Assembly: GCA_947034885.2 (NCBI GenBank)
Contig: OX344751.2
Coordinates: forward strand, 15,686,001-15,750,000
Length of the DNA: 64,000 nt
Direction of reading: 5' to 3'
Origin: Thuidium tamariscinum
Taxonomy: Eukaryota > Streptophyta > Bryopsida > Hypnales > Thuidiaceae
Shown: positions 1 through 61,556 of the stretch, one piece after another
Layout of the letters: every line of letters starts with the position of its first letter
Position numbering within the stretch: the first letter of the stretch is position 1
The notes under the pieces: model-generated
Database searches by the model: none
What the model saw: the letters and a program-made list of their open reading frames with translations, nothing else
What the model was told of the DNA's origin: nothing
Program-made: the position numbers and the translations under genes

Positions 1-1120
1 TTCAAAATGAATACAAGTTCTTTCTTGTAGAAGGGTTTGTGTTAGATGTACAATGCTTCAAAAGTACACTTAAAGCTTTGGCTATTGGCAAAAGTAGTCA
101 AGAATAGTTACCCTATGTTCTCGATTGTATTGTAAAGGATGTCTAATGGCAAGCATGTTTATTTTGCATTCTTCAATATCTTTCCTTCAATTTTATGACT
201 AATTTTTTTACAAGGTGATAGAAATTTTAAAAGTACTTTTTGAGGATGTTGTGAACCACCATTTTTCTTCACGTTTCGAGAAATGGGAATCATAAACAAA
301 GGTGTGAATTTACAAATTCAAAAGTATTAGTTCTAGATCAAACCACAATTGTTAGTTAGAATTTTTTTTGTTAAGATAACGGTATGAACATTAGGAGTTC
401 ATGGAGAGTAAGTGAAAAGTGCAATTGCAAGAATACAAAGGATAAATTATTGGGAAAAAATAGGGGTTCTAAATAAAAATTACATTAAGGAAGATTTGGT
501 AAAGTAACCAAATTAGGCAAATGGTAAAATGGTGTTAATTTTCTTTTTAAATACAACAAAGTTGAAAATGAAATTAGAATTAATAGGAATTTGGAAATGA
601 AAGATAACTCGATTTAACAATTTTTTCACATCAAACTATTTTGAAAAAAATTACTCTACTATGCCTAAATTAGGTCTAAAGTTCTATATTGAATATAATT
701 CCTTTGTCTTTGCTATGAGTAAGCAAGCTCTCATTTTCTAATCATCCCTTACCTTTTGAAGATTTATGCAAGAGAATGGATTTTGATATTTATAAAAACA
801 ACCTCTCCACCCTATATCTTACATTTGGATTTCCTTCAATGTTGTGCCGTTTGCATTTTCTCTTTGTATAGAATAGGTAGAAACTTTTGTAGTGTACCTC
901 TTTTTAGTGCAATCTAGTTAGTAATGGAGTTCGTAAGTGGGGCCAATTTGAATAACATTCTCTAAAAGATAGTGTTTGAAGTTGACATCTGTAAATGGCT
1001 ATTTGTTGCATCTCTTCGACATACAAAAGACTTTCTTAGAGCATAGTCTGAACACCTTGCACTAAAAGAAATTCTATTTGTATAGTCTTTGTGTATAGAG
1101 TAGCTAGCACCCATTTGTAG
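1..1120. other. AT-rich tract without a recognisable gene
   Basis: No open frame of convincing length or composition is present on either strand. A stretch near 600-700 shares a skeleton with about 47140-47290 and with the inner part of the foldback near 59380-59440 (the string actatg followed by an aaat-aggt core), so at least part of this tract is old repeat. Confidence 0.5.
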
Positions 1121-32169: not shown

Positions 32170-33894
32170 CTATCCAATCATCAAGACATCATTCAAGCTC
32201 AAGCCTTGGCTGTGTCGTAACGATGAACGCCCAGCACTACCCTGGTTTCCCTTGCGCATCATCGCAACGAATTCGATGTAGTCAATCTTCCCATCATTGT
32301 TTTGATCAATTTCCTGAAGCAACTCATCCACAGATATGTCTCCCATATTGAACTCTTTCAAGGCATGTTGAAGCTCATCAATCGTCAGATAGCCACTTTT
32401 ATCCTTGTCCAAGTACGAAAAAGCAGCAAACATATTCTCATCTCGTTCAATCTTGTTCAGATGGAGAGTGGCAGCAAGAAACTCTCCATAGTCGATTGTT
32501 CCATTACCGTCGACATCGGCAGCCTCCATGAGATGTCGAACATCCTCTTCTTTGAGATTTGAACCTACCTTAGTCAGGCCAGCCTTCAGCTCTTCATAAC
32601 TGATAGATCCTGAGTTGTCAGTATCCATCATCTTGAACATCTCCTTCAGACCTGCAATTTCCTCCTCTGACAAAGACTCAGCTATGACCCGGATGGCAAT
32701 TTTCTTCAGCTTGTTCATTGCTGAAAAGTGCTTGAGCCGAGACTGCACCGCTGAATCAATAGGTCTGTCAGGTGCAACTCCATCTTCACAGATCCAAGGA
32801 TGTGCCAACACTTGATGAGCCTTCAACCTCTTCGAAACTTGAGGGGTGAGCATTTTGCGAATCAGGTCCTTGGCACTATCAGAGATTTTAGGCCATGGAT
32901 CTGAGGCAAAATCAAGCTCTGATTTCAGAACCTGCTCAAAGATACCTTGCTCAGTTTCTGCCCAAAATGGGGGAACACCACTAAGGAGGATGTATAGAAT
33001 CACTCCCGCACTCCAAACATCAGCTTCAGGGCCATAATTCTTCCTTAACACTTCAGGGGCAACGTAGTATGGGCTTCCAACCACATCCCTGAAAACTTCT
33101 CCGGGCTTGAAAAACATCGATAACCCAAAATCAGTAGTTTTCAAAGCCGCATCCTCCTTTGAACTAGAAAACAGGAAATTCTCCGGCTTCAAATCCCTGT
33201 GCATCACCCCAAGGGAATGGCAAGTCTCAACCACACCCACGATGGTGCGAGTAAGCACTGCAGCTTTGGCTTCAGAGTAGTGCCCTCTTTGAATGATGCG
33301 GTCAAACAGCTCACCACCAGCACAAAGTTCCATCACCAAATGCACTGAAGTAGAATCTTCATATGCCCCTTTAATCAAGACAATGTTAGGATGCCCTGAA
33401 AGATGATGCATAATTTGCAGTTCACGACGCACATCATCCACATCCTCCTTGGAAATGAGCTTCTTTTTCGCAATAGACTTGCAAGCATACTCCCTGTTTG
33501 AGGATTTCTCAATGCACAAGTACGTGGTGCCAAATTGACCTTGTCCCAGCTTCTTTCCCAAAACGTACAAGTCTCTTAAATTCTCAGTCCTGCGCTGTAG
33601 CACGGAGTACGTTAAGCTCTGCCCGGGGACAGGTTTCATCTCTCTCCCCTTCTTCATGGCCTCAATCACCTCCTTGAATTGCTGAGAATCAGGCGCTTCG
33701 ACTGCAGGTATGAAGTTCGGGCGTGGTGGTTTCCGTTGAGCCTCTGGGGATTCCCCCTCAGTCCTGCATCGATTAATATCTGCTTTCGATACACCAGGTG
33801 ATGTTTCTGAGGATCTAGTGCTCCGCCCACCCAGCGCAATTGCACTGGTGAAGCCTTGAAAATACCCAGCCGCTCCTACACAAGTGTTACCCAT
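32170..33894 (-). CDS. Calcium-dependent protein kinase (CDPK/CPK), single exon
   Basis: An intact 574-aa frame without introns. The N-terminus MGNTCVG gives Gly2 for N-myristoylation and Cys5 for palmitoylation, so membrane association is likely. The variable region runs to about residue 109. The Ser/Thr kinase domain is about 110-368: glycine loop GQGQFG, Lys139 in [14 protein letters not shown] with catalytic Asp234, DFG at 255-257, APEVL, and [15 protein letters not shown]. The autoinhibitory junction is about 391-406 ([16 protein letters not shown]). Four canonical EF-hands start at Asp424, Asp460, Asp496 and Asp530, each with acidic residue 12. All catalytic and Ca2+ ligands are present, so it should be an active Ca2+-regulated kinase. 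The pre-DFG block reads LKTTDFGLS where most CDPKs have LKATDFGLS. Plant CDPK genes usually have several introns; this one has none in the coding region. Confidence 0.97.
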
Positions 33895-36440: not shown

Positions 36441-37850
36441 ACTCCATTTCAACGGGACAATTGGTCATGAGATTAACCCTTGAACAACGAACTAGTGGCT
36501 GTGGAAATCATGCATTTTGATACCATGTGACATCATGTACTTTGAGTAAGCGAAATATACTCATTGAAAGTCCAAGTACTTTAGGAGATCTCTCCATTTC
36601 ATCCCTAATATCAAGGATGAATAGTTGCACTTATGTCCTACAAGGGAAGATTCCTCATAACATTCAGTAGCCCATAAAAGGACTGCCTTTCCCTTGGTGA
36701 AGTCCCCATCACCTAATTTCATTTGACATTTCTTGGAGTTGCAACTTTAGTTACTGAATGGTGTGGAATACCATTGGTGCTGGATGGAATGGTGTGGGAT
36801 ATTCCACACCATTTCATCCGCTAGGAGGCCGTATGGCAGGCTAGTACTGAATGTAATGCTTGTCATTCATGAGACGCAAAATGTCCACTTCAGTGTTTAA
36901 TGGATAATCCTATAAAGACACGGCTCCCATGACCACAATATTCACTACAACGGTCACTAAACTTCTTTAATTGTTGGACTCACATATGCATCTTCTTATT
37001 CTTCAATTGATAGTGAAGTCATCCATCAAACCACTTCAATCCTTAGCATCTTTACAAGGTTAAGGAAGACAAGCCTATTAACTCCTCCTTGATTTCAATG
37101 CTCATGAGATTAAACTTGAAATGTCAAGGGGGACATTTTGTTTCCAATAGACAATAGAGAGTCTTTGTATATAGGACAAAAGTGCAACTATTCATCCTTA
37201 TAATTTTTTGAGGAAAGGAGAGATTTTTATAGTAGTTTGACTTCTATTGAGCACTTTTGGATTTTTTTTTAAACCAATGATTTCCATTGTATTAAAATGG
37301 ATGATTTCCATAGTCACTAGTCTACTTTTTAAAGGTTAAGGATGACAAGCTTACCTATTACCACCTTGATTAGTAATCTGAGTATCTTGGGGCCAACTCT
37401 AGGAGGGGCATATATTTTTTCAAATGTGTGTGCTTGTTTTATGAATCAAAACCAAGTGGACTTTTAATTTTTCAATTAAAATTGTGAGTTCTATGAATAT
37501 GTGAAGTAGTATGTTGTAAAATTACAAAATCACTGATAAAGAAGTGTCATGAACATTCTATAAACAACCCATGATCCCCCTCCCATGATTCAAAAGGTAC
37601 TCAAGTGCTCACCATTAAAGGATTGACATGTTATTCCTTATTGGCACTAATGCAATGATTTGTTAGAAAATGAATGGATTTAAATGAGATTTTGGTAGAA
37701 TTGGGCCAAAACATGATGATGGAAAATAAGAAACTAGTAGAAGTGGGCTAGCCTACTTTGTGCTATTGTTGTAGAATAAGTTATACTTGGTTAATTTGTA
37801 TAATAAACAAGCACTGACATGTTGATAAAATATAGAAAAAACACAAGTAT
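36441..37850. other. Start of the gene-poor repeat block
   Basis: It contains the repeat shared with 2878-3062 (36470-36660), a perfect-looking small cruciform at 36782-36819, and an inverted pair at 36612-36641 / 37171-37199 sharing 'aaggatgaatagttgcactt'. The inverted pair suggests a TIR-type element of about 590 bp. No host gene is seen. Confidence 0.5.
36782..36819. repeat. Small cruciform-forming palindrome
   Basis: Arms GGATGGAATGGTGTGG and CCACACCATTTCATCC (16 bp, one mismatch) around a 6-base loop. A half copy (gaatggtgtggaata) lies just upstream at about 36757. Confidence 0.75.
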
Positions 37851-46545: not shown

Positions 46546-48485
46546 GGCCCACTAGTAAGTGTTAAGTTAACACTGTTATTACCATAGCCTTAGAGCACGA
46601 TCAACCGAAAATAATTATTTTCAAGAATGCCAAAAATAAAATAAAAGGAAAAAGAAAAATTGCTAAATTTTGCAGAAATTATTTGACAGTCAAGTTGTTG
46701 TAAAATAAGAAAAAGTCCATTTTTAGGCTTAGGAAGTCTATAGAAATGTCAAAGACAACTTACCTTCAAAAAAATATTGATGACAAAGTGGAGGATTTTC
46801 AATATTGAAATTTAGTAAGAATTAAGGATAGAGAGGCTCTTTTTATAATGAAATCTATTGTCTTTCATGAACCCACAAAGGATATGGGATAATTTGAAGA
46901 AGGAAATTTAACCACTCATTGTTAAAACGTAGGATTTGTGTTTATTGTAGGATTTTGGACCCTATTTTGACATTGTAGAATTTTTTTTTTCAAAATAATT
47001 TGAACAAAGAAAAGTTGAGAAATCAATCTAACTTTCATTTCAAAAAATCTATTTGTGATTTTGAGTCTCCAAAAAAAAAGGTTTGGACAATAATAAAAGG
47101 ATGTTTGAAAATTTTTAAAAATTCCCTTCTAACCCCTCTTTGAATTTGCTCATAACTTTTGAATGGAGCCTTGAAATCTCAAACGTTTTTTTGGAGATGA
47201 AAGTTAACTCGAGTTTTCATTTTTTTTTAATTCAAAGTTTTTTGAAAAAAACATTCTACTATGTCTAAATGAGGTCTTAAATTGTACTATGAACACAATT
47301 CTTGCATTTGATGTAATTATGAGAGTTTGAGCTTCTACTAAATTATCCTAACATTTACTGTATGTCCTATATGGTTTGTTCTACCTCCCATCACCCCATT
47401 TGTATCAAGAGATTGTCTTACACCTTCCATCACACATCCACTCACTAGGCAATTGAAGCTAAGAGCTAAAACTTTTGACATCTATCTAATACAATGTCAA
47501 TTTTTAAAAAGTTGAATTTGATAGTGTTGAAGCTACCTTAGTAACTTTAATTAAATACTTGGCAACAGTGTATTGATCCTACCTTATGGTTGCAATATTC
47601 TTATTGCAAATCATATTTGACATCATGTCAACTTCATTACATTTTGTTATACACATCAAGGTCTATAGTAATAGCCAAACTTTGTGAATATTGTTGTTAT
47701 GTTTATTTGATATCCTAGTGAAAGCAATAATATGCATTTGTAGACTATGCAAATATGTCCCGTTGCATCTCACTCACTTTATAGTGGTTTGTGTAGTTTT
47801 GGAGAAGGCTTTAGATGACGTCTACAACCTCTTGGAGTATTTTCAAACCTCTTCAAAAAATTTGATTAGTTGCTTACTACTTATGCTTAAGTCTTGTTAA
47901 ACTTAGAATGAAAAGAAAATGAATTTTTTTTACATATTAGTACTTGGTAATTTTAGCATAGAAAGAGGAATTTTATTGATGTTATGATTGTAGAAAAATG
48001 GCCCTATGCATGTTGCAATACATTTTTTTATAATTGCATTGCATTTGTATGTATCTTGCTCGGATTTGTTCAATACCCCTTATTTCAAAGAAGTTCATAA
48101 ACGACATGGAGACAAGTGGTGCTTAGCTCTATGATGAAGTAGGACTCAATCTTTTCAAAATAAACAAATTTGATTATTGTCTTTTCTAGGGATGTTCTAG
48201 AGGAGCTACTTTAATTCTTACACTTAAAATTTGTTTGGCTAACAAATTTTGAATGCTCAATTATTATTTTAAAAAACATAATGCAAAAATTGACATTTGA
48301 CATGATATCAAACATAAGTTCTACAAATAATTTAAAGAATAACCAAAAGGTATATTAATGGTTGCATCAACATCAAAAGGCATGCTAGTCATTAATTTGC
48401 ATTATTATAAGTGCTCCTAGGTTCCATTGATACTTTAAATGACAGTGAAATCTATAGAACCAATTGTACCCTAAGTGCATTTTTA
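46546..48485. other. AT-rich tract, no gene
   Basis: Includes a segment (about 47130-47290) related to the inner part of the foldback at 59380-59440 and to 600-700. No coding frame stands out. Confidence 0.45.
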
Positions 48486-49059: not shown

Positions 49060-50532
49060 GATAGGCCCCCAACAGTGCTATTCTGTGAGCTTGTGAGCGT
49101 GAGCTTATAAGAGTAGAGCAGGGATTCTGTAAGTGCTCACAAAGCTTAAAAATTTGAAGAAGCATTATAAAACTTAATTTTATTCATTAAAATTGATTCC
49201 ATCTTAAAATTTGAATCAAAATTTTTTATTTCTAATAAGTGTTAGTACCTATTTTTGTAGACCTATTACTGTAAACCTATTACCATAGTTATATTGAAAT
49301 TGAATAAAGATTTTAATTTTCAATCTTACTTAAAAGTATACATTACAAAAATGAAGAACTTAATTGATATGAAAGATGAATAAAGATGGAATTAAGTTAA
49401 TATAGAGTATTGGTTGATCATTATCCTATAATAATGTAGATCTTTTTGAGGCCTAGGGAAAGGTACTAATGATTTTTATTTATATATTATTATTATAGTT
49501 GTTTAGATTTTTGAAAGAAAATTTGTTGATAAAAATGTTTGCTACACTAAATTTTATTTTGGTTGATCATGTCTTGTAGTATTAAAAGTCTTCTCAAGGC
49601 CAATAGGAGGGCATCAATTATTCCCTCTTTATTTTTAAGTCAATGGACTTGTTTAAATTTTAGAAAAAAATTTGTTTGTATGATTTCATTATATATGGAA
49701 AGAATTTAGTTGCACCAAATTTCATTTTGTTCATGAGTATCTTATAGTAGCGTAGGTCTTTTCAAAGGCCAATGTAGGCACCTACTATTTTGTCTTAATG
49801 TATCAATAATGGAACTTGTTAAGATTTTAAAATATATATTTGATTGATATGGATTACTTTTGTAAAGAATGAACTTCGTTATACAAGATTATTGATTATT
49901 TAACTCATTATCCTCTTGTTCATCCAATGAAGGGATTCATTTCTTCTTTCTTGATTCAATGGTTGTTTATTTATCATCTTGAAACAATACTTGTCAAGCT
50001 TTGCTAGATTTTGTGAACACTCTCCTTGGTCTTGCTTCTTAGTACCCCTCGGCGCCAAGAGGAGTCCCACGGCTCCTATAAAATTATTATTGCAAAAAAG
50101 GGGGGGTTGGCCAAGAGACTCCCCTCAGTGCCGAGGGGAGTCCCACAAATGCCGGGGGAAAAAAGAACTTTTTTTAATCGGACCCGTGGGACTCCCCTTG
50201 GTGCCAAGGGATACTAAGAAGCAAGACTGAGGAGATTGTTTACAAAAATCAAAATTTGTGAAATAACCTCATTTGATTTCAAAAAATTTATAATTAGTCA
50301 CTAATGTTTTTTCTTCATAAAATCTAGCAAAGTACAATAAATGGTAAAACAAAGTTATTCAAGGGACCACGGTAATAGGTCCACGATAATAGTTCCACGA
50401 TAATAGGCACTAAAATTTACCAAAGTTAATCAAATTTGGCCAAAAGTTTTAGATGGAATCTTCAAAAAATTGACTAGGCTCGCATGCTCATAGGCTCACA
50501 AGCTCACAAAATAGCAACCCGGGATAGGCCCC
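49060..50532. mobile_element. Family B (hAT-like) element, copy 2, with a nested MITE
   Basis: Flanked by GATAGGCCCC on both sides (49060-49069 and 50523-50532; 8-10 bp depending on where the ends are set). The left end CCAACAGTGCTATTCTGTGA and the complement of the right end CCGGGTTGCTATTTTGTGAG form imperfect inverted repeats. Sub-terminal GTGAGC/GCTCAC motifs recur, and 'ggtccacgataatag' near the right end matches 'ggtccacggtcatg' in copy 1 (16370). About 1.45 kb, no transposase. Confidence 0.7.
50018..50238. mobile_element. Nested GC-rich MITE with about 55-bp inverted ends (family H)
   Basis: The left end CACTCTCCTTGGTCTTGCTT matches the complement of the right end CAATCTCCTCAGTCTTGCTT. 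The match continues through CTTAGTA, CCC, GGCGCCAAG/GGCACCAAG and GAGTCCCACGG. A third, central palindrome (GACTCCCC...GGGGAGTC, about 50120-50150) gives a multi-hairpin. The element is strongly GC-rich inside an AT-rich host element. The frames over it are artefacts of the repeat. Confidence 0.8.
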
Positions 50533-50800: not shown

Positions 50801-50881
50801 ACTTTTATTTTGGTTGTAGCAATGGTACAAGGCACTACACCTTAAATGAGGTTGTTTGTTATTTATTTACTATGTTTGTTA

Positions 50882-51480
50882 TCCCCTAAAAGACCAACTT
50901 GCTAAATTTGGCAATTGATCAATTTTAAGCATGTGCATGTAATTAGAGATTTCTATATTTTGGGCCCAAATTTTAATAGAAGATGAGGACAAAGAATATC
51001 TTTCATGTGCACCAAAAACCATGACATTTGGAAATATGAGTCAAAAGTTATAGCCTAATATGGTGGTTTTTTTTAAGTGGATAGTTCAAGCAAATTGAAA
51101 AAAATCACTTTTCTCATAAACAAAAATTTCAAATTAATTGTCTTCATTTATGTATGTGTGGAAAGATTTGAATCATTCCATTTTGATCAATGAGTCAAAA
51201 TTTATGAGGAGTATTTGTTTGTAGGTTGTTATGGATTTTTTTACTCTAAAGTATACTTTGAAGTCCTTTGTTTTATTCAATTTTCAATATTTCTGAAAAA
51301 AAAATCATAGGTTGTATATTGTTTATTACAACATTGCAACCATTGGAATTGGCATTTTTCAATTCCATAAATAAATTCTTAACAACCTTGTATTTTCAAT
51401 CATTTGCTATTTTTTTCTATTTATTATTTTTTTCCTATATGTTGTACAATTCCAAATAATTTGAAATTTCTTAGGCAAGT
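50882..51480 (-). mobile_element. Family C element, partial copy on the minus strand
   Basis: Starts TATCCCCTAAAAGACCAA, then (complemented) follows the right half of 51771-52710: 'aaaatggaatgattcaaa', 'accaatggttg', 'tagtaaatagaaaaaa', 'ttgtacaa'. With 51771-52710 it forms a large imperfect inverted repeat. Confidence 0.6.
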
Positions 51481-51770
51481 ATCCTACTTGACCTCAACAA
51501 TGAATTCAAAGAAACACAACCATTTGGGGTCATTTTTCATATGATTGTTGCTTTCTGAAATGCAACTGCTATGTTTTTCGTAGGGTGAAAAAAATTATTT
51601 TTGAACATTCAGATGCTAATAGCTTGCAATCTACATGATGCATCAGAAAAGTTGGAAAATATTATTTTGGTGTCATTATGACACTAGAGGTAACATTCTT
51701 GGCGATACAAGTAATTTTAGTGTTATTTTATCCATATTGGGTTGGTATGGAGGTTGATACCAAATTAACT

Positions 51771-52710
51771 TAACCCCTAAAGGTTTTTGGCTATGTTTTC
51801 ACCAAAACCGCTTCAAAACTATCATTTTTAGACAACTACCAAATTTTAAGAAGAAAACATTTTTGGACAAAAGTAACCATAGTCTGTTTTAGATAACAGG
51901 TTTAAAAAGATGTGGAAAAAATTTCAGCAATTTTTGCCATGTAGATTGCAAGGTATTAGTGTTTGAAGTGACAAAAATCATTTTCTTACCACTGCGAAAA
52001 TCCGGGCAGCTACACTTCAGAAGACCATATTGTATGGAAAAATGTCCAAAATGATTGTAACTCTTTGGATTCATTTTTCAAGTAAATTTGGCTACATTCT
52101 TGAAAATTTTCAGATCATTTGGAATTGTACAACATATAGGAAAAAATAGTAAGTAGAAAGAAGTAGAAAATGAGCCATAATACTAAATTATTAATAATTT
52201 ATTTACAGAGTCAAAAGAAGACAATCCCAACGGTTGTAATGTTGTGTTAAACAATATAAAACCAATATTTTTATTTTTTCAAAAATATTAAAAATAGAAT
52301 TAAATGAAGAATTTCAAACTTTTCTGCAGTGTAGAGATTCTATAACTAGCCAAAACTACTTCAAACTAAAAATCCTCATAACTTTTGATTCATTGATAAA
52401 TATGGAATGATTCAAAGCTTTCCACTTAGATAAAAATCAAATAAATCAATTTCAATTTTAAATTTAAAAATAGATAAATTTTAAAGAAGTTTTTTTTTCT
52501 ACCCAGGCTGCCCGCTGAGTAGACAAAACAACATATTATGTCATAACTTTTTAACCATGTAGTCAAAAGTTATGAAAATTGTTGGGCCTTAAAGCTACTC
52601 CTTGGTCACATGTTGTATAAAAATTTTAAAGAAAAAAAATAAAAACTCCATCCGTAATGAGCTGCTCGAAATCTTTATGTTGCTAAAGAACTTAGTTTGG
52701 TGCTTTAGGG
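51771..52710 (+). mobile_element. Family C element, most complete copy (about 940 bp)
   Basis: The left end reads TTAACCCCTAAAGG and the right end CTTTAGGGATTAA, imperfect inverted repeats. The right end at 53989 (inverted) is a perfect CCTTTAGGGGTTAA. The interior is non-coding and matches 37851, 50882 and 53989. A TTAA-type end raises the possibility of a piggyBac-like origin, but target duplication cannot be separated from the element end here. Confidence 0.65.
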
Positions 52711-53476
52711 ATTAATTGCGTTTCAATGCACCATCATGGCACCACATTCACGTGCATTGAAGTTCTTGATGTAGAAAACTTTGAAATTTTTCCTACATGT
52801 TTACAAATTGATTTACTAAAGGATCCTATGGTTGCAAATCTCAATTTTAAGAAAATTTAGTATTGGTACTAGAAATGGTAATTTTCAGTTGGTTTTAAAG
52901 TAAATATAGTGAAGGAACTTAAAAGGCAATAGTAAGATCTTTAGAAGTGTAAGTCTTCCAATCACATTCTTGGTACCTTCACAATCAAATTCATGATCTT
53001 TTTGTAATTTTGTTAGACAAATTATTTTTTTCTAGTGCAATTTGGCACGAAAAAGCCCAATAAAAAAGCCTTGAGGAGGCGGGTACTTTCAAAAGCCCTA
53101 TACCATTTCAGCTTCAAAAATTCATAATTAATGCGACAAAGCTCAAAAAAAATACGAAACGACTTACATTAAATGTCAATTCTTCTTGTCTTTTAAAGAA
53201 AATTTGCTGAAAAATATTTCAAGAAGTTTCACCTCCCAAAATTCAGTTTCAGGACTTAGATAGGCGCTTTTTGGACCTCCTCCCTTAGTTTCCATTGAAT
53301 GTTGAATCACGAGGAAAGACTTTCCTGATTTTTAGAGAGAACTGCATTTCCTATCCACCTACATACTTTTCTCATTCAGTTTCTCTGGAATCCTATGACA
53401 GCAAATTATTTTTTAGTTGGTAGAGTGACTTGTACCCTCAATTGCAAATAAGGAAAAATCGATGGAATCATTTATG
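52711..53476. other. AT-rich tract, partly derived from family C
   Basis: About 52800-52900 repeats, inverted, pieces seen near 37890-37960 and 51810-51900 ('ggatcctatggttgcaaatc', 'attggtactagaaatgg'). The rest is unassigned. Confidence 0.4.
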
Positions 53477-53810
53477 GTGGAAACACCCAAAAACCGTCCA
53501 AATAATATTTTTCTCATATTAGCAAGTGAAAATCAGGAATATTAAAAAATAAAAAATAAAATTGGATCCCATATGTAATTTCTATGATTTTCTAAAGTCT
53601 TGGCTCTTTCCCTAGACCACTGGAACTGTTCAATAGATGCCCCCAAATTTGAACACTGATAAAATCAGCAATGAGCCAATCACATTTTAGTATGTGTCCT
53701 TAATATATGTCAGCAAATTAGTGTCAAGCATTTGGCAAACACATTAACTGCAATCTAGGGACAATTTTGGATGAGTCTAGTGTACAGGGATGATTTTGGG
53801 TATTTCTGCC
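53477..53810. mobile_element. TIR element family F, copy 2
   Basis: Left end GGTGGAAACACCCAAAAACC; the complement of the right end is GGCAGAAATACCCAAAATCA. Interior blocks 'tagaccactggaactgttc', 'gtgtcc' and 'tcagcaaattag' match copy 1 at 45707 in the same orientation. Confidence 0.75.
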
Positions 53811-53988
53811 TTATCTATATATTTTGCTTCAAAATGATTTGTTACTTCCTTCGTCCCAAAATGATTTTCATGTTGCATGTTGTGATGTTGTGAATTGGTC
53901 AAATTTAGCTTTCAATTGCTATATGGGATAAATTTTAAAAAAAAAAAAAAACTTCAAGTAGTGGTTCCCTCAACATCCATGCAGTCAT

Positions 53989-54565
53989 TAACCCCTAAAG
54001 GACCAAATTGTGTTTTTTGGCAACATAGCAATTTGGGGGAGCTCATTGTGGATGGAGTTGTTTTTTTCTTTGAAATTTTTACACAACTTGTGTCCAAGGA
54101 TTAGCTTTAAGGCCTAACAATTTTCATAACTTTTGACTACATGGTTAGAAAGTTATTGCAGGATATGTGATTTAAAAAAAATCTTTAGGCAGCCCGAATA
54201 GCTCAAAAAACTTCTTTGTAAAGCACTTTTTGAAAAAATATAAATGTGAAATTGGTTTATTAGTTATTTGTCTTAGTGGAAAGCCTTGAATCATTCCATT
54301 TTGATCAATGAGTAAAAAGTTATGAGGAGTTTTAGTTTGGGGTAGTTTGCATGTAGTTAGAGTATCTCTACTCTACAAAAAAAAATTGAAATCCTTTATT
54401 TAATTCAACTTTTAATATTTTTGGAAAAAAATTAAAATATTAGGTGAAGATTGTTTATTACAATATTACAACCATTGAGATTGGCATTTTTCATTTCCAC
54501 AGTATTTTGAATCATTTTCTACTTTTTTCTATTTACTATTTTTTCCCTATATATTGTACAATGGA
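53989..54565 (-). mobile_element. Family C element, minus-strand copy
   Basis: Starts TTAACCCCTAAAGGACCAAA. Complemented, it follows 52200-52710 closely: 'gtagtcaaaagttatgaaaa', 'ttgttaggccttaaagcta', 'aaaatggaatgattcaagg', 'atggttgtaatattg'. The left half of the element is missing or runs into unrelated sequence at about 54565. Confidence 0.65.
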
Positions 54566-55840: not shown

Positions 55841-56136
55841 CATTAGAAGAGATTTGAGAGCTCTAGGAGCCCACAAGTTCCCACAGCCCGAAATCCTGTA
55901 ATGTGCCGCGAGAACGTAGTTCCGCAGGGAATCCTACGTGGTCGAGCGACTACCACGTCATAAACTTCTTCTTTTTTTGAAAATTTTTTTTGGACTTTTT
56001 TTCATATTTCAGGACCCCCCAATTATTATTTTTATTTTTTGAGAAATTCTGGCCCGACAGCGGCAAGCCATTCCCTAGACCAGTTTCGGGAACAATCCTG
56101 AAACGGCCCATTGGAGCCCTCAAATCCCTCCTAATG
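55841..56136 (-). mobile_element. TIR element family A, copy 7, nested
   Basis: Starts CATTAGAAGAGATTTGAGAG, ends CTCAAATCCCTCCTAATG. The internal 'tacgtggtcgagcgactacc' is the complement-side match of copy 1's right block. It has retained more GC than the older copies. The nesting shows family A was active after family B here. Confidence 0.8.
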
Positions 56137-56604
56137 GTTTTATGATATCTACTTATATATATGCTCACATGCTCACACTTTCATGCTCACATACTAAGAC
56201 CATTGGGCAAACACTTGCATATTACAAATCATTGTGCAATTAATCAATTGTCAATTTTATTATCTTCTTTTACCCCAATCAAAATTTTAATCCATCGTGA
56301 AATGAAAGTTTTATTTGGCACAACAATTGTCATTTTATAGTACCATTTCTTAAAGACTAAAATAGATATTAAATGCTACTATACAAAATAATACTAGAAT
56401 ACCATGGGAATGCATATAAATTTTTTCAAAAGCTTTGACTTTATAGATTCTAAGATTATATTGTTAGAAGGTAAAAAAGTTTGACCTTGCTCAACTCAAT
56501 CAACAAACTTTGTCTCTTTTTAGACAAAGTTTCTTTCAATATGCAAAGTCAAATTATTTTTATCATTTTTTACAATCATTGCATATCATGTTACTTACAT
56601 ATTC

Positions 56605-56840
56605 AATGATTCTAGTATGTGAGCATAAAAATGTGAGCACGTGAGCCTTGGCATATAAATAAGTAGATATCCTGCAACCATTGAAGGTGCTTACAACATA
56701 AACATCTATAATAAAGGGGTGTATATATATAATATAATTGCACTATAATATTAATTTCTTTAATATCTAAGTACCTACACCATAATTGCATAGTCTTGTA
56801 GGCTTATGGGCTCATACTCTTAGGCTCACATAATAGCAAC
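56605..56840. mobile_element. Short family B-type element, copy 4
   Basis: Starts CTAGTATGTGAGC, ends GGCTCACATAATAGCAACC; the complement of the end, GGTTGCTATTATGTGAGCC, matches the left end of the copy at 55645. The interior 'aacataaacatctataata' is shared with 48765-48965. Confidence 0.55.
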
Positions 56841-57210: not shown

Positions 57211-58601
57211 GAAGACTATACTCTTAGTTTTATTTAAGGAGGTTAAAGAGGGCTTTGCCATCACTTTGCCATCCCAATGGTTTTAGCAATGGCAAAAGGC
57301 ATGTACTTTAAAAAAAATCACCAATCCTATTCTCCATCACAATTAGAGTGATGATGTTACATCTACTATAACTTTTGAAGCACAAGTCCAATGAACATGA
57401 AATTCCTATTAGAGATGTCTAACTTGATGGTAATTCTATATTATATTTTAGAAATTAAAATCAATACAAAATTTAAAAGTCAATTTTGTTATTTTGTCAC
57501 ACTCAAAGATTTAGGGGTTTTCACTATGTTTGGAGTACCCAAATTGATTGATTTAGAGTTCAAATTTGGTAGCCTATTTCCATTTTCTAAACTCATGTAA
57601 ATAGGGCTCTTTGCATGAGCATATTTGAACATTAAAGATGGAGTCAACTTCATTTTTTTGGGTGAAATTTAATCACCATCAAGTATTCACAAATGACCAA
57701 TTTTCATTTTTTTTTCGTTTGTAATTTGCTATTTATTATTAAATTATACCTCATTGTTTCTACTTTTTGTAACAATCTATCTTTTTTTCTTCTTTAATAC
57801 CATTTCAATACTTATAAGTAGTCCATAGTACTTGCAATGGTGCTTTTAGCTATCAATTTTGGCAATCAATAGCTAAAAAATTTCCACTTCATAGTACTCA
57901 TAGTATTGTAAACCAAAAATGCAGATTTGACCAAAAATGTACACAAAAATCATTGTGTTTCTTGTAATGACCCCACACTAGTTCAAAATCAAATTTGAAG
58001 GAATCTACCTAAATTCTATTTGGTCACTTGAAGGCCAATTGTCATTCATAGGTAATCAATAAAAGTCAATAGCTCTAACTTTGGTCCTAATCTATTTGTT
58101 GACCTCTTTAGAGTGTTCCAAGAAACACTTGATAGTGTTGTTTTATCATCACATAATACTTCTACCATGTCTTCATTCATAACTTTTGAATTAAAGAATT
58201 CATAGACCTAAATTTTTTCTTAAATGTGTAGAAGTTTTTAAATAATACACCCTCTATTCCACTAGAAACCTCTAAAAATCTTCCCTTTGAGGGATTAACT
58301 ATATTTGAAGTCATAGTGCTAGTAGCACATATTTTTCAAGATCAAGTAACCAATCCCTTAGATCTATGTAAAATCTTTAGCTTATATATTGTTGTTTAGA
58401 CATTCTGAATCTATATGTGAAAAATATGAAATTTGAGCATAGTTTGTGAATGCTTCTAACCCTATCATTTTTTTTATTTTAAAAGATGGTCACAATAGTG
58501 TGATTTAAGAAACATGTTCCTCAACCTAAATACCCACAATAAAGAAACTTTGCCTACTTTATGAACAAATTTTTATAGTGCCAAAGTGGTCACTCAATGC
58601 A
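57211..58601. other. AT-rich tract, no gene
   Basis: The frame at 57391-57600 is short and AT-driven, with no family signal. Nothing else recognised. Confidence 0.45.
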
Positions 58602-60041
58602 TTCACTACAAGGAACGTGTGTCCTATTTGATAGTAATTTTGACAAAATTCTGTCAACTTTGCTATAGATTAGAAACACCTACGTCAGACACTTTTTTTT
58701 ATAGAATTATATCAATTCGGCTATCAATTCGGACAATGATACACATCAACAAGTCTTCTTCTTACTCCTTTGCCACCGTGGATTTTTTTCTTTGCCAACA
58801 TGGAGTTTTTCCACATCACTTATTCCAAAAAATTATTTTCCAAGGATTTAATAAAATAGTTGAAATAATGGCTTGAAAAAAAATTAGATGAAATTTTGTC
58901 AAATGAATGATAAATTTTTAGATGAAATATTTTTGAATGATTTAAATTTTTAAATTTTGATTTATCAACTTTCAAGAATGTTGACCAAAACAAACTAAGA
59001 TCATGGAGTTAATTGATTCAATAAATTGTTTTACTCCATGAACCATTTGTATTTTGTGAAATGAATGGGGAAGAGAAGCTCCTTATATACACATACAGAG
59101 GTAGGAGGTCGACCAACCCATATGGGATATATGAATTCTTGAAGTTGTGAGAGCTCATAGTTAAATTAAAAACCCCAAATTTTGTATTAAAATTAGGATT
59201 TCAAACCTCATTTAAGCATAGTAGAATGTCTTGTTTCAAAAACATTTGAACTAAGACTAGTTAGAATATGAATTGGAGTTTTGCCTCCAAAAATCCGTTT
59301 GACACTTCAATTTTCAATCAAAAGTTATGGAATTTCAAAGAGGTGTTTGAAATTGTTCTTATTATATTTTTTTCAAACTTCCTCTTTGAAATTTGTTCAT
59401 AAATTTTGATTGACATTCTACTATGCTTAAATGAGGTTTGAAATCCTAATTTTAATACAAAATTTGGGGTTTTTAATTTAACTATGAGCTCTCACAACTT
59501 CAAGAATTCATATATCCCATATGGGTTGGTCGACCTCCTACCTCTGTATGTGTATATAAGGAGCTTCTCTTCCCCATTCATTTCACAAAATACAAATGGT
59601 TCATGGAGTAAAACAATTTATTGAATCAATTAACTCCATGATCTTAGTTTGTTTTGGTCAACATTCTTGAAAGTTGATAAATCAAAATTTAAAAATTTAA
59701 ATCATTCAAAAATATTTCATCTAAAAATTTATCATTCATTTGACAAAATTTCATCTAATTTTTTTTCAAGCCATTATTTCAACTATTTTATTAAATCCTT
59801 GGAAAATAATTTTTTGGAATAAGTGATGTGGAAAAACTCCATGTTGGCAAAGAAAAAAATCCACGGTGGCAAAGGAGTAAGAAGAAGACTTGTTGATGTG
59901 TATCTTTGTCCGAATTGATAGCCGAATTGATATAATTCTATAAAAAAAGTGTCTTGACACGGGTGTTTCTAATCTATAGCAAAGTTGACAGAATTTTGTC
60001 AAAATTACTATCAAATAGGACACAGGTTCCTTTGTAGTGAA
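58602..60041. mobile_element. 1.44-kb foldback element with near-identical 628-bp arms
   Basis: Left arm 58602-59230 and right arm 59412-60041 are inverted copies. I count only a handful of differences, mostly in the outer 150 bases (for example AAGGAACG versus AAAGGAACC). The loop (59231-59411) is about 180 bases and has a weaker inner palindrome ('aatcaaaagttatg'/'cataaattttgatt'). Termini read TTCACTACAAGGAAC; CACTACAA is typical of CACTA/EnSpm ends, but no 3-bp duplication is visible (flanks att/aac, or gca/cca if TT is included). The paired 85-96-aa frames at 58586-58876 (+) and 59766-60023 (-) are the same arm read twice and not a gene. RNA from either strand would fold into a very long duplex. 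Confidence 0.9.
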
Positions 60042-60280
60042 CCAATCATTTGCCTTGGTTTCCTCCCATCCTTTTACAAATTGTTAGTGGGTTGACTTTT
60101 AGACATCTACATTTAAAAATAGGTGCCAATGATACAAATATTAGTAAAAATCATAATTAATTTAACGATTCAACAATACAAAATCATTTCGCTTACGTTA
60201 TGTATCTATCTTTGTTCCTATGAAAAATGACCTAAATTATTTTCCATCTACAAAAAACAATAAAAAAGGTTGATCAAACC
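60042..60280. other. AT-rich spacer
   Basis: Right flank of the foldback; nothing recognised. Confidence 0.4.
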
Positions 60281-61556
60281 TTAGTCTCTAAATGCCCAAG
60301 GCAACCAAATTTGGTGTTTGCAAAACTTTGAAGTAAATAAAACCTAACCAAGTTGCTAATTTTAGTAGACTATATTTTTGGGAACTTCATTTTGAAGTCT
60401 AGTTTTACTCTTGAAAATGATTCATTATGATTTTTCTATTTAAGGTTTAGTGCAAAGGTGTCTAGTGCAATCTTGACTTTTTGTAGTATTGAGGGCTCTT
60501 GGAAATGAGCCTCAAATACACTAGAACTTCGAGAAAAAACCAAATTAGAAATTTATTTAAGAAAATTGTAGAATAGATTTTGAAAAGCCATAAATTGATT
60601 GGGATCATTCATGATAGGGTCTCACTTTAACCTCATATTCTCTTGGTGACCAAATTTTTAGATTTGACTTGTGAAAAGAGGGTTCAAAGATTTTAACTCA
60701 CTTTTGTAGTTTTAACACCCTCATGATCAAACATTATAATTTTCAATCCATAAATGATATTGTTGTGTTTTCTTTACCTAAGTGATCTCTAACATGTCAA
60801 GTTTGAATTTATAAGGTTACATTTTTTTTAAATTGATAAAACTTATCAAATTGTTCACTTTTGTTCTTGTTAGAGGAACTAAGCTTGCTAGAAGTTCAAA
60901 AAAGGCCTTGGGCATTTAGGGGTTAAAATGGTCGGTATTAACCCATAAATACCCATGGCACTAGAATTTGGTGTTTGCAAAACTTTGAAGCCTAGCCAAC
61001 TTGCTATTTTTAGTAGTTTATATTTTTGGACAATTCTTTTAGAAGTCTAGTTTTAGTGTCAAAAAACAATCTCGAAAATGAATGATAGTGATTTTTTTAT
61101 TCAAGATATTGTCCAAGGGGACCCATTGCAATCTTGACTTTCCATAGTGTTGAGAGCTCTTGAAAATGAGCCACAAATACACTAGATCTTGGATAAAAAT
61201 TCACATTTAAAATTCATTTACAAAAATTGTAAAGTAGATTTTAAGAAGCTATAAATTGATTCGAGTTATGCATGTTAGGTACTTTAACCTCATATTTTGT
61301 TGGTCACAAACCTTTCACTTTACATCATTTTTGCACTTTAAACACCCTCATGGTCAAATTTTATAATCTTTCACTCCATAAGTGATATTGTTGTGTTTTC
61401 TTTCCTATGCAATCTATTACATGTCTAGTTTGAATTTGAACAGTTTCAATTTAAAAAAAATTTGATACAGCTTCTCAAAATATTGGCAATTTTTTTTTAA
61501 CTTAGAGCAAATTCCAAGAAGCTCAAAACAGCCCTTGGGCATTTAGGGGTTAAATA
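60281..61556. mobile_element. Two tandem related TIR elements of about 640 bp (family J)
   Basis: Units 60281-60927 and 60930-61556 match in order: 'tttggtgtttgcaaaacttt', 'gaagtctagtttta', 'gcaatcttgacttt', 'tgag-gctctt', 'gagcc-caaatacactaga', 'aaattgta-a-tagattt', 'ataagtgatattgttgtgtt'. Each begins near (T)AACCC(A)TAAATGCCCA and ends with GCCTTGGGCATTTAGGGG or GCCCTTGGGCATTTAGGGGT, so each has inverted ends and the pair share the junction. The ends resemble family C (TTAACCCCTAAA). Confidence 0.7.

Follow-up and report, generated by a model that had tools for sequence, protein, structure and literature searches.

The locus lies in a 64,000-bp stretch of the Thuidium tamariscinum genome (assembly GCA_947034885.2, contig OX344751.2, positions 15,686,001 to 15,750,000 of the forward strand), referred to here as the window, with coordinates counted from its first base. 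Near its right-hand end is a foldback element, E1, which is listed with its parts, its flanks, and two older relatives in Table 1. E1 is genuine and sharply delimited; it derives from an old non-autonomous CACTA-type family and carries the same end, B, twice. Aligning the two arms of the foldback (58602-60041) gave lengths of 629 bp (58602-59230) and 630 bp (59412-60041) around a 181-bp loop, with 623 of 628 columns identical, five mismatches, and three one-base gaps; a first-pass annotation of the same DNA, which had described arms of about 628 bp that differ at a few sites and a loop of 180 bp, was right in substance. These long inverted arms with little or no interior place E1 in the foldback class. 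The inner 493 bp of the arms show no differences; all eight lie in the outer 136 bp. If differences were evenly spread, the chance of all eight falling there would be about 5e-6; the value rises to 5e-4 when neighboring changes are merged into about five events, and to 0.01 when run-length changes are dropped and three events remain.

Of the 17 inverted pairs of 60 bp or more reported for the window, E1 has both the greatest length and the highest identity (98% over 621 ungapped bases); the runner-up by length spans 271 bp at 77% identity, although a lenient scan also lists many degenerate palindromes. A lenient palindrome scan in 32 tiles returned E1 with E = 0, while first-order Markov resampling of the same tiles gave a single match in total at E <= 1e-9. 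The predicted RNA fold is one long hairpin (-1084.7 kcal/mol) with small stems in the loop. The loop consists of a left-only segment of about 85 bp plus a smaller imperfect palindrome, and the majority of family copies align across it. The termini of E1, CACTACAAGG and CACTACAAAGG, lie at 58604 and 60039 and begin with CACTA, as do the terminal repeats of CACTA (En/Spm) elements.

Table 1. Features of the E1 locus and its older relatives in the window
Feature	Coordinates	Strand	Basis or remark
E1, B/B foldback derivative, non-autonomous CACTA-type	58604..60039	.	1,436 bp between CACTA termini; arm alignment, family comparison
E1 left arm, B end (CACTACAAGGAACG...)	58604..59230	+	Arm alignment and family consensus
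Outer left-arm stretch with all eight inter-arm differences	58602..58737	+	Partner at about 59905-60041 in right arm
E1 loop, left-only segment and imperfect tip palindrome	59231..59411	.	181 bp
E1 right arm, second B end, replacing the A end of typical copies	59412..60039	-	Alignment and A/B queries
AA beyond right terminus of E1	60040..60041	.	Complementary to TT ending the left flank
Left flank, part of repeat T1 cut by E1, flanking triplet ATT	58245..58602	+	Flank search
Right flank T2, not a continuation of T1	60042..60276	+	One relative seen (L052, 74%)
E2, a degenerate and much older relative whose central palindrome is homologous	46550..47720	.	Clear over 46874-47364; outer limits tentative, by eye
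E3, older half-relative, homology over 472-823	472..894	.	Candidate right end ...CTTTTGTAGTG at 885-894

A family with two kinds of end

We searched the genome (363 Mb in 19 contigs, with the window on contig 3) using the left arm as query. This gave 773 first-look candidates, 40 of which were scored, including the two arms of E1 itself. Other copies exist, so a lack of them, which the first-pass annotation had named as grounds for doubt, falls away. The other 38 main matches begin at query base 3, the C of CACTA (21 matches), at base 2 (6), at base 1 (9), or later (2). Family copies terminate in CACTACAAGGGAAA; the CACTA terminus is present in 25 of 28 other loci, with CATTA in L016 and L027 and, read by eye, ACTA after T in L029. 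With the ends picked by eye, an exact 3-bp target duplication was found in 6 of 15 readable copies (L013, L019, L021, L022, L024, and L025); the 3-bp flanks have one mismatch in four (L004, L010, L014, and L015) and agree less well in five (L009, L016, L020, L029, and L030). The shared ending and the exact duplications identify the copies as non-autonomous CACTA-type elements. The CACTA-like ends read from the letters alone thus stand, except that the leading TT belongs to the left flank and the terminus is CACTACAAGG. Helitron, hAT, and MULE readings, which rested on ends shifted by two bases and on chance CAAT/CATT flank words, are excluded by the family terminus and the 3-bp duplication.

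In a typical copy, a central palindrome of about 360-570 bp separates a B end (consensus CACTACAAGGGAAACTGCGTCC...) from a distinct A end (CACTACAAGGGAAATGG...). The central palindrome was detected in 25 of the 28 loci and not in L007, L019, or L027. A second end of another kind could be read in 15 of the 28, L028 is B/B, and 12 have no convincing second end. By eye, subterminal words like TTTTGACAGAA or TTCTGTC seem to occur in both end types. The lists contain 85 B and 40 A ends, which face each other in 14 B/A combinations, three B/B (E1 included), and no A/A, and since the lists are limited to the best-scoring rows these proportions are rough; the count used start coordinates only and excluded three 48-bp partial left-arm rows, one 51-bp outer-B row, and rows found twice. 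Both E1 arms align with the full 413 nt of an outer-B consensus (90% and 91%), and outside the inner arm two A-end queries gave no match longer than 100 bp at E1. The family is commonly B/A in form, and E1 is B/B. Two other B/B copies were found. The arms of L028 are identical at 603 of 670 aligned bases, with 37 gap positions (90.0%), and its flanks are ATT/TGT; those of L055 agree at 424 of 448 positions over the outer arm, with six gaps (94.6%), and its flanks would be CTA/TTA if the last base of the right end has mutated.

A broken target site

The triplets next to E1 are ATT on the left and AAC on the right, so E1 itself shows no 3-bp duplication. Its left flank belongs to a repeat, T1, that continues beyond the insertion point in all six copies fetched, where 13 of the 15 copy pairs match over about 100-240 bp. 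To the right of E1 this continuation is absent from the window and from the next 8 kb, although the same query finds it in other copies of T1. The flank alignments show a broken target, E1 having cut T1 next to ATT. Loss of the right part of T1 from that side explains why no duplication is seen, and would hide one even if it had once been there; the earlier observation of no clear target duplication holds, and has its account in the missing part of T1. The empty site spanning both flanks that had been proposed as a check did not appear: a query made of the joined flanks listed 40 matches of 241 candidates (E1's own two flanks, 37 left-flank matches, and one right-flank match), none of which crosses the join by more than three bases. 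The AA after the right terminus is complementary to the TT before the left terminus, as if an inverted copy ran 2 bp into the flank, but such agreement would arise by chance in about 1 case in 16 or more and is weak evidence.

T1 (58240-58602; relatives L048-L051, L053, and L054) itself resembles a repeat of about 600 bp with inverted ends, in that 58240-58276 matches the continuation of L049 in inverted orientation (37 bp, 92%). Just right of E1, 60289-61554 holds two direct copies of about 610-640 bp that are 72% alike.

Age of the insertion and equalization of its arms

The first-pass annotation took the likeness of the arms to mean either recent insertion or gene conversion. We compared each arm with a consensus built from 29 further B arms, one from each of 28 loci and the second one of L028. 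The E1 arms are 91.9% and 92.3% identical to it, within the family range of 88.2-94.1%, and none of the 38 other places scored from the 773 candidates is more than 90% identical to the E1 arm, the closest being at 89-90%. Departures from the consensus number 46 common to both E1 arms, five in the left only, and one in the right only, counted at ungapped sites and omitting columns that are gapped in either E1 arm or hold fewer than 15 family letters. Had the arms decayed independently since insertion, most changes would be unshared, so the ratio of 46 to 6 indicates that the arms were equalized after the family had spread. Of the shared departures, 35 also occur in at least one of the 29 other arms, and part of them may therefore be subfamily variation rather than damage to E1; 11 shared departures, two left-only, and none right-only are absent from all 29. 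The comparison resolves towards an old insertion whose arms were probably equalized recently, and away from a young one: about 8% divergence from the consensus and the lack of a close relative among the scored places speak against recent insertion, and the shared departures speak for later equalization.

We also built two trees from 166 nt of the inner arm. E1 falls among the B arms in one and between B and A in the other; the A arms of 15 loci form a clade with support of 0.994 in the first, while in the second the A arms including L005 have support of 77.5/88 and the same 15 without L005 have 0/49. These trees are too weak to place E1 or to prove a direction.

Transposase and coding content

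Searching the genome for Transposase_21 (PF02992), which we take to be the CACTA transposase, gave 627 candidates; all 150 that were scored exceed the cut-off, and many have long open frames. The 150 scored matches all lie more than 15 kb from the 125 family ends listed, and one 10-kb transposase region contained no convincing CACTA end pair. The genome thus offers many candidates for the mobilizer, which had been described as unknown, and no particular partner emerged among those scored. Within the window, 39 stop-to-stop frames reach 110 codons or more; 20 of them were searched against Pfam and gave no match over a curated cut-off. A kinase open reading frame was handled separately: 32170-33894, on the minus strand, is an uninterrupted frame of 574 codons whose best solved-structure match is a calcium-dependent protein kinase.

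Potential for hairpin RNA

If transcription ran through the whole of E1, and only then, the RNA is predicted to fold into a hairpin of 629 bp with 493 perfect pairs, and E1 could in this way make double-stranded RNA; the siRNA source or proto-MIRNA locus that the first-pass annotation saw in it is a candidate role. Rfam identified no family at its gathering score in the window. Exact 21-mers are shared between the E1 arm and 28 of 28 other copies (median 54; median for 24-mers, 38), and 242 of 604 left-arm 24-mers have an exact match in at least one of those 28, where about the first 900 bases of each copy were compared, so that many 24-mers look distinctive enough to be mapped to E1. RNA from the predicted hairpin could therefore act on the family in trans, as Mu killer acts on MuDR, an analogy to which we return below. 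A review gives as its third model that any inverted duplication can start a new MIR gene (PMC10004981); we infer, by analogy with the model as outlined there, that E1 might be such a start.

By eye, each arm contains a TATA-like word with a pyrimidine-rich stretch downstream (TATATAA at 59553-59559 on the plus strand, mirrored at 59083-59089 on the minus strand), and TATAA-like words occur at the matching place in the left arm of E2 and in E3. In both arms of E1 the words point outwards, so alone they would not transcribe the hairpin.

Older relatives in the window

A tree of the four inner-arm sequences from E1, E2, and E3 groups the left arm of E2 with E3, and its right arm with E1, with 100% bootstrap support (200 replicates). 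Site counts for the arms only range from 17:4:8 to 22:5:7 according to the alignment; at the tip the counts are uninformative (5:5:3 in one alignment). On the E2/E3 branch, the two types of arm may thus be ancient, though alignments are shaky at such a distance. The wider tree puts E2 and E3 side by side outside the present family, which leaves no basis for identifying their arm types with A and B. Other long degenerate palindromes, with about 57-70% self-identity, lie at 1110-2300, 36473-37339, 49946-50306, 50879-52715, 52124-54562, and 56127-56687; they apparently belong to other families, and foldback-like elements seem common in the window.

Origin of the B/B state

We favor, at a probability of roughly 55%, the reading that after insertion E1 lost its A half and gained in its stead an inverted duplicate of the B half; the central palindrome would have seeded this rebuilding, and the target on the right would have been lost. 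E1 would have inserted into T1 as an ordinary asymmetric B/A copy. A break or an abortive transposition on the A side could then have brought the inner arms of the A and B halves into pairing by way of the central palindrome, the feature of the family that makes replacement of the A half possible. The broken or displaced A-side strand would have folded back or paired onto the B side and been extended outward to the B terminus, by hairpin-primed repair or by gene conversion between the arms. Loss of the A end, of the duplication, and of what remained of T1, which left E1 joined to T2, would have happened either in this event or in a later one that broke at the right terminus. Finally, the inner 493 bp would have been homogenized again, more recently than the outer 136 bp: the clustering of differences in the outer stretch requires either later conversion between the inner arms or a separate, earlier origin of the outer ones. 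We infer the repair mechanism, the order of the steps, and any RNA product.

Several points count against rebuilding, among them the possible subfamily variation within the shared departures, the weak placement of E1 in the inner-arm trees, and the scoring of 40 out of 773 candidates. A repair tract ending at the terminus, or 2 bp past it, is a coincidence unless cleavage by transposase ended the template, and a single event alone does not account for differences confined to the outer 136 bp. The main competitor holds that E1 transposed recently as a ready-made B/B foldback, a deletion starting at its right terminus having then removed the duplication and the remainder of T1. Both termini are exact, other B/B copies exist, and Transposase_21 genes are abundant; the near-duplication CTA/TTA around L055 also suggests that B/B copies may insert as units, and deletions beginning at a transposon end are well known. 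We nevertheless consider this course of events unlikely, as it requires an extra deletion exactly at the end of the element, no young source appears among the 38 other places scored out of 773 candidates, all being at most 90% identical, and the E1 arms are as distant from the consensus as those of other copies.

The difference between the flanks and the missing duplication would also suit a fusion, through their central palindromes, of two related B-ended elements at the neighboring targets T1 and T2, and chimeric copies of Galileo in Drosophila are bounded by different 7-bp sequences (PMC3573991). Those chimeras have unusually divergent terminal inverted repeats, whereas the 46 shared departures in E1 would demand near-identical sisters as parents, and we regard fusion as quite improbable. 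We give similarly little credence to an artefact of assembly or polishing, which would either have merged the arms into a single consensus where they lie more than a read length from the unique flanks or have created the right junction by a mis-join. The last arm difference lies 136 bp from the flank, near short-read length, and the target is broken at the junction; against this, the ends of E1 coincide with the family terminus, eight sites differ between the arms, E1 retains the asymmetric loop of the family, B/B structure recurs in two other copies, an older relative is also palindromic, and the listed matches include no second near-identical locus from which a mis-join could borrow. Two further possibilities were rejected: a missing adapter or fold-back read chimera as the main reading, since the palindrome ends where the transposon does and has a center in common with its relatives, and a palindrome made wholly afresh, since the tip palindrome is family-typical and still imperfect while the arms match.

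Rebuilding of one half may not be confined to E1. In a broader version of our preferred reading, the central palindrome would let one half re-template the other recurrently, producing the B/B foldbacks E1, L055, and L028, and the E1 hairpin could silence the family in trans, an effect that would agree with the absence of young copies from the scored set; we consider this combined proposal a long shot.

Comparison with known systems

Galileo, of the P superfamily, provides close precedents in its two-TIR, extended-TIR, and chimeric copies: its foldback forms arise repeatedly from a normal DNA transposon, the arms of one copy were extended by duplicated and inverted internal sequence, and its chimeras lack a duplication and lie between different 7-bp sequences (PMC3573991). 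It differs from E1 in superfamily and kingdom; E1 has CACTA termini, arms with shared departures, and a visibly cut target repeat. Titles and the openings of abstracts in the literature searched gave no account of CACTA foldbacks made by end replacement, which is not proof that none exists.

In the soybean Tgmt*/Tgm group of CACTA (En/Spm) elements, the CACTA terminal repeats measure about 13 bp, the target duplication is 3 bp long, and the left and right subterminal regions are asymmetric (PMC2613891). The family of E1 shares the terminus, the 3-bp duplication, and the asymmetry of left and right regions, whereas E1 itself is non-coding, lacks a duplication, and carries one end twice, so that inverted arms of 629 bp stand in place of a 13-bp repeat. 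Mu killer, a rearranged derivative of maize MuDR, gives a long-hairpin transcript matching its own family, with small RNAs and silencing reported (PMC8224964). Both are rearranged transposon copies, but the small RNAs and silencing are reported for Mu killer, and the hairpin transcript of E1 is predicted from sequence; Mu killer is also a Mutator and not a CACTA element, and E1 consists of non-coding ends alone.

E1 points, in this one genome, to a likely route from an asymmetric DNA transposon to a long foldback, in which half of the element is replaced by an inverted copy long after insertion, and not to a young insertion. The family offers a graded series of arm likeness (99%, 95%, and 90%) from which the process might be timed, and palindromes like E1 are natural candidates for hairpin RNA, deletions, and inversions.
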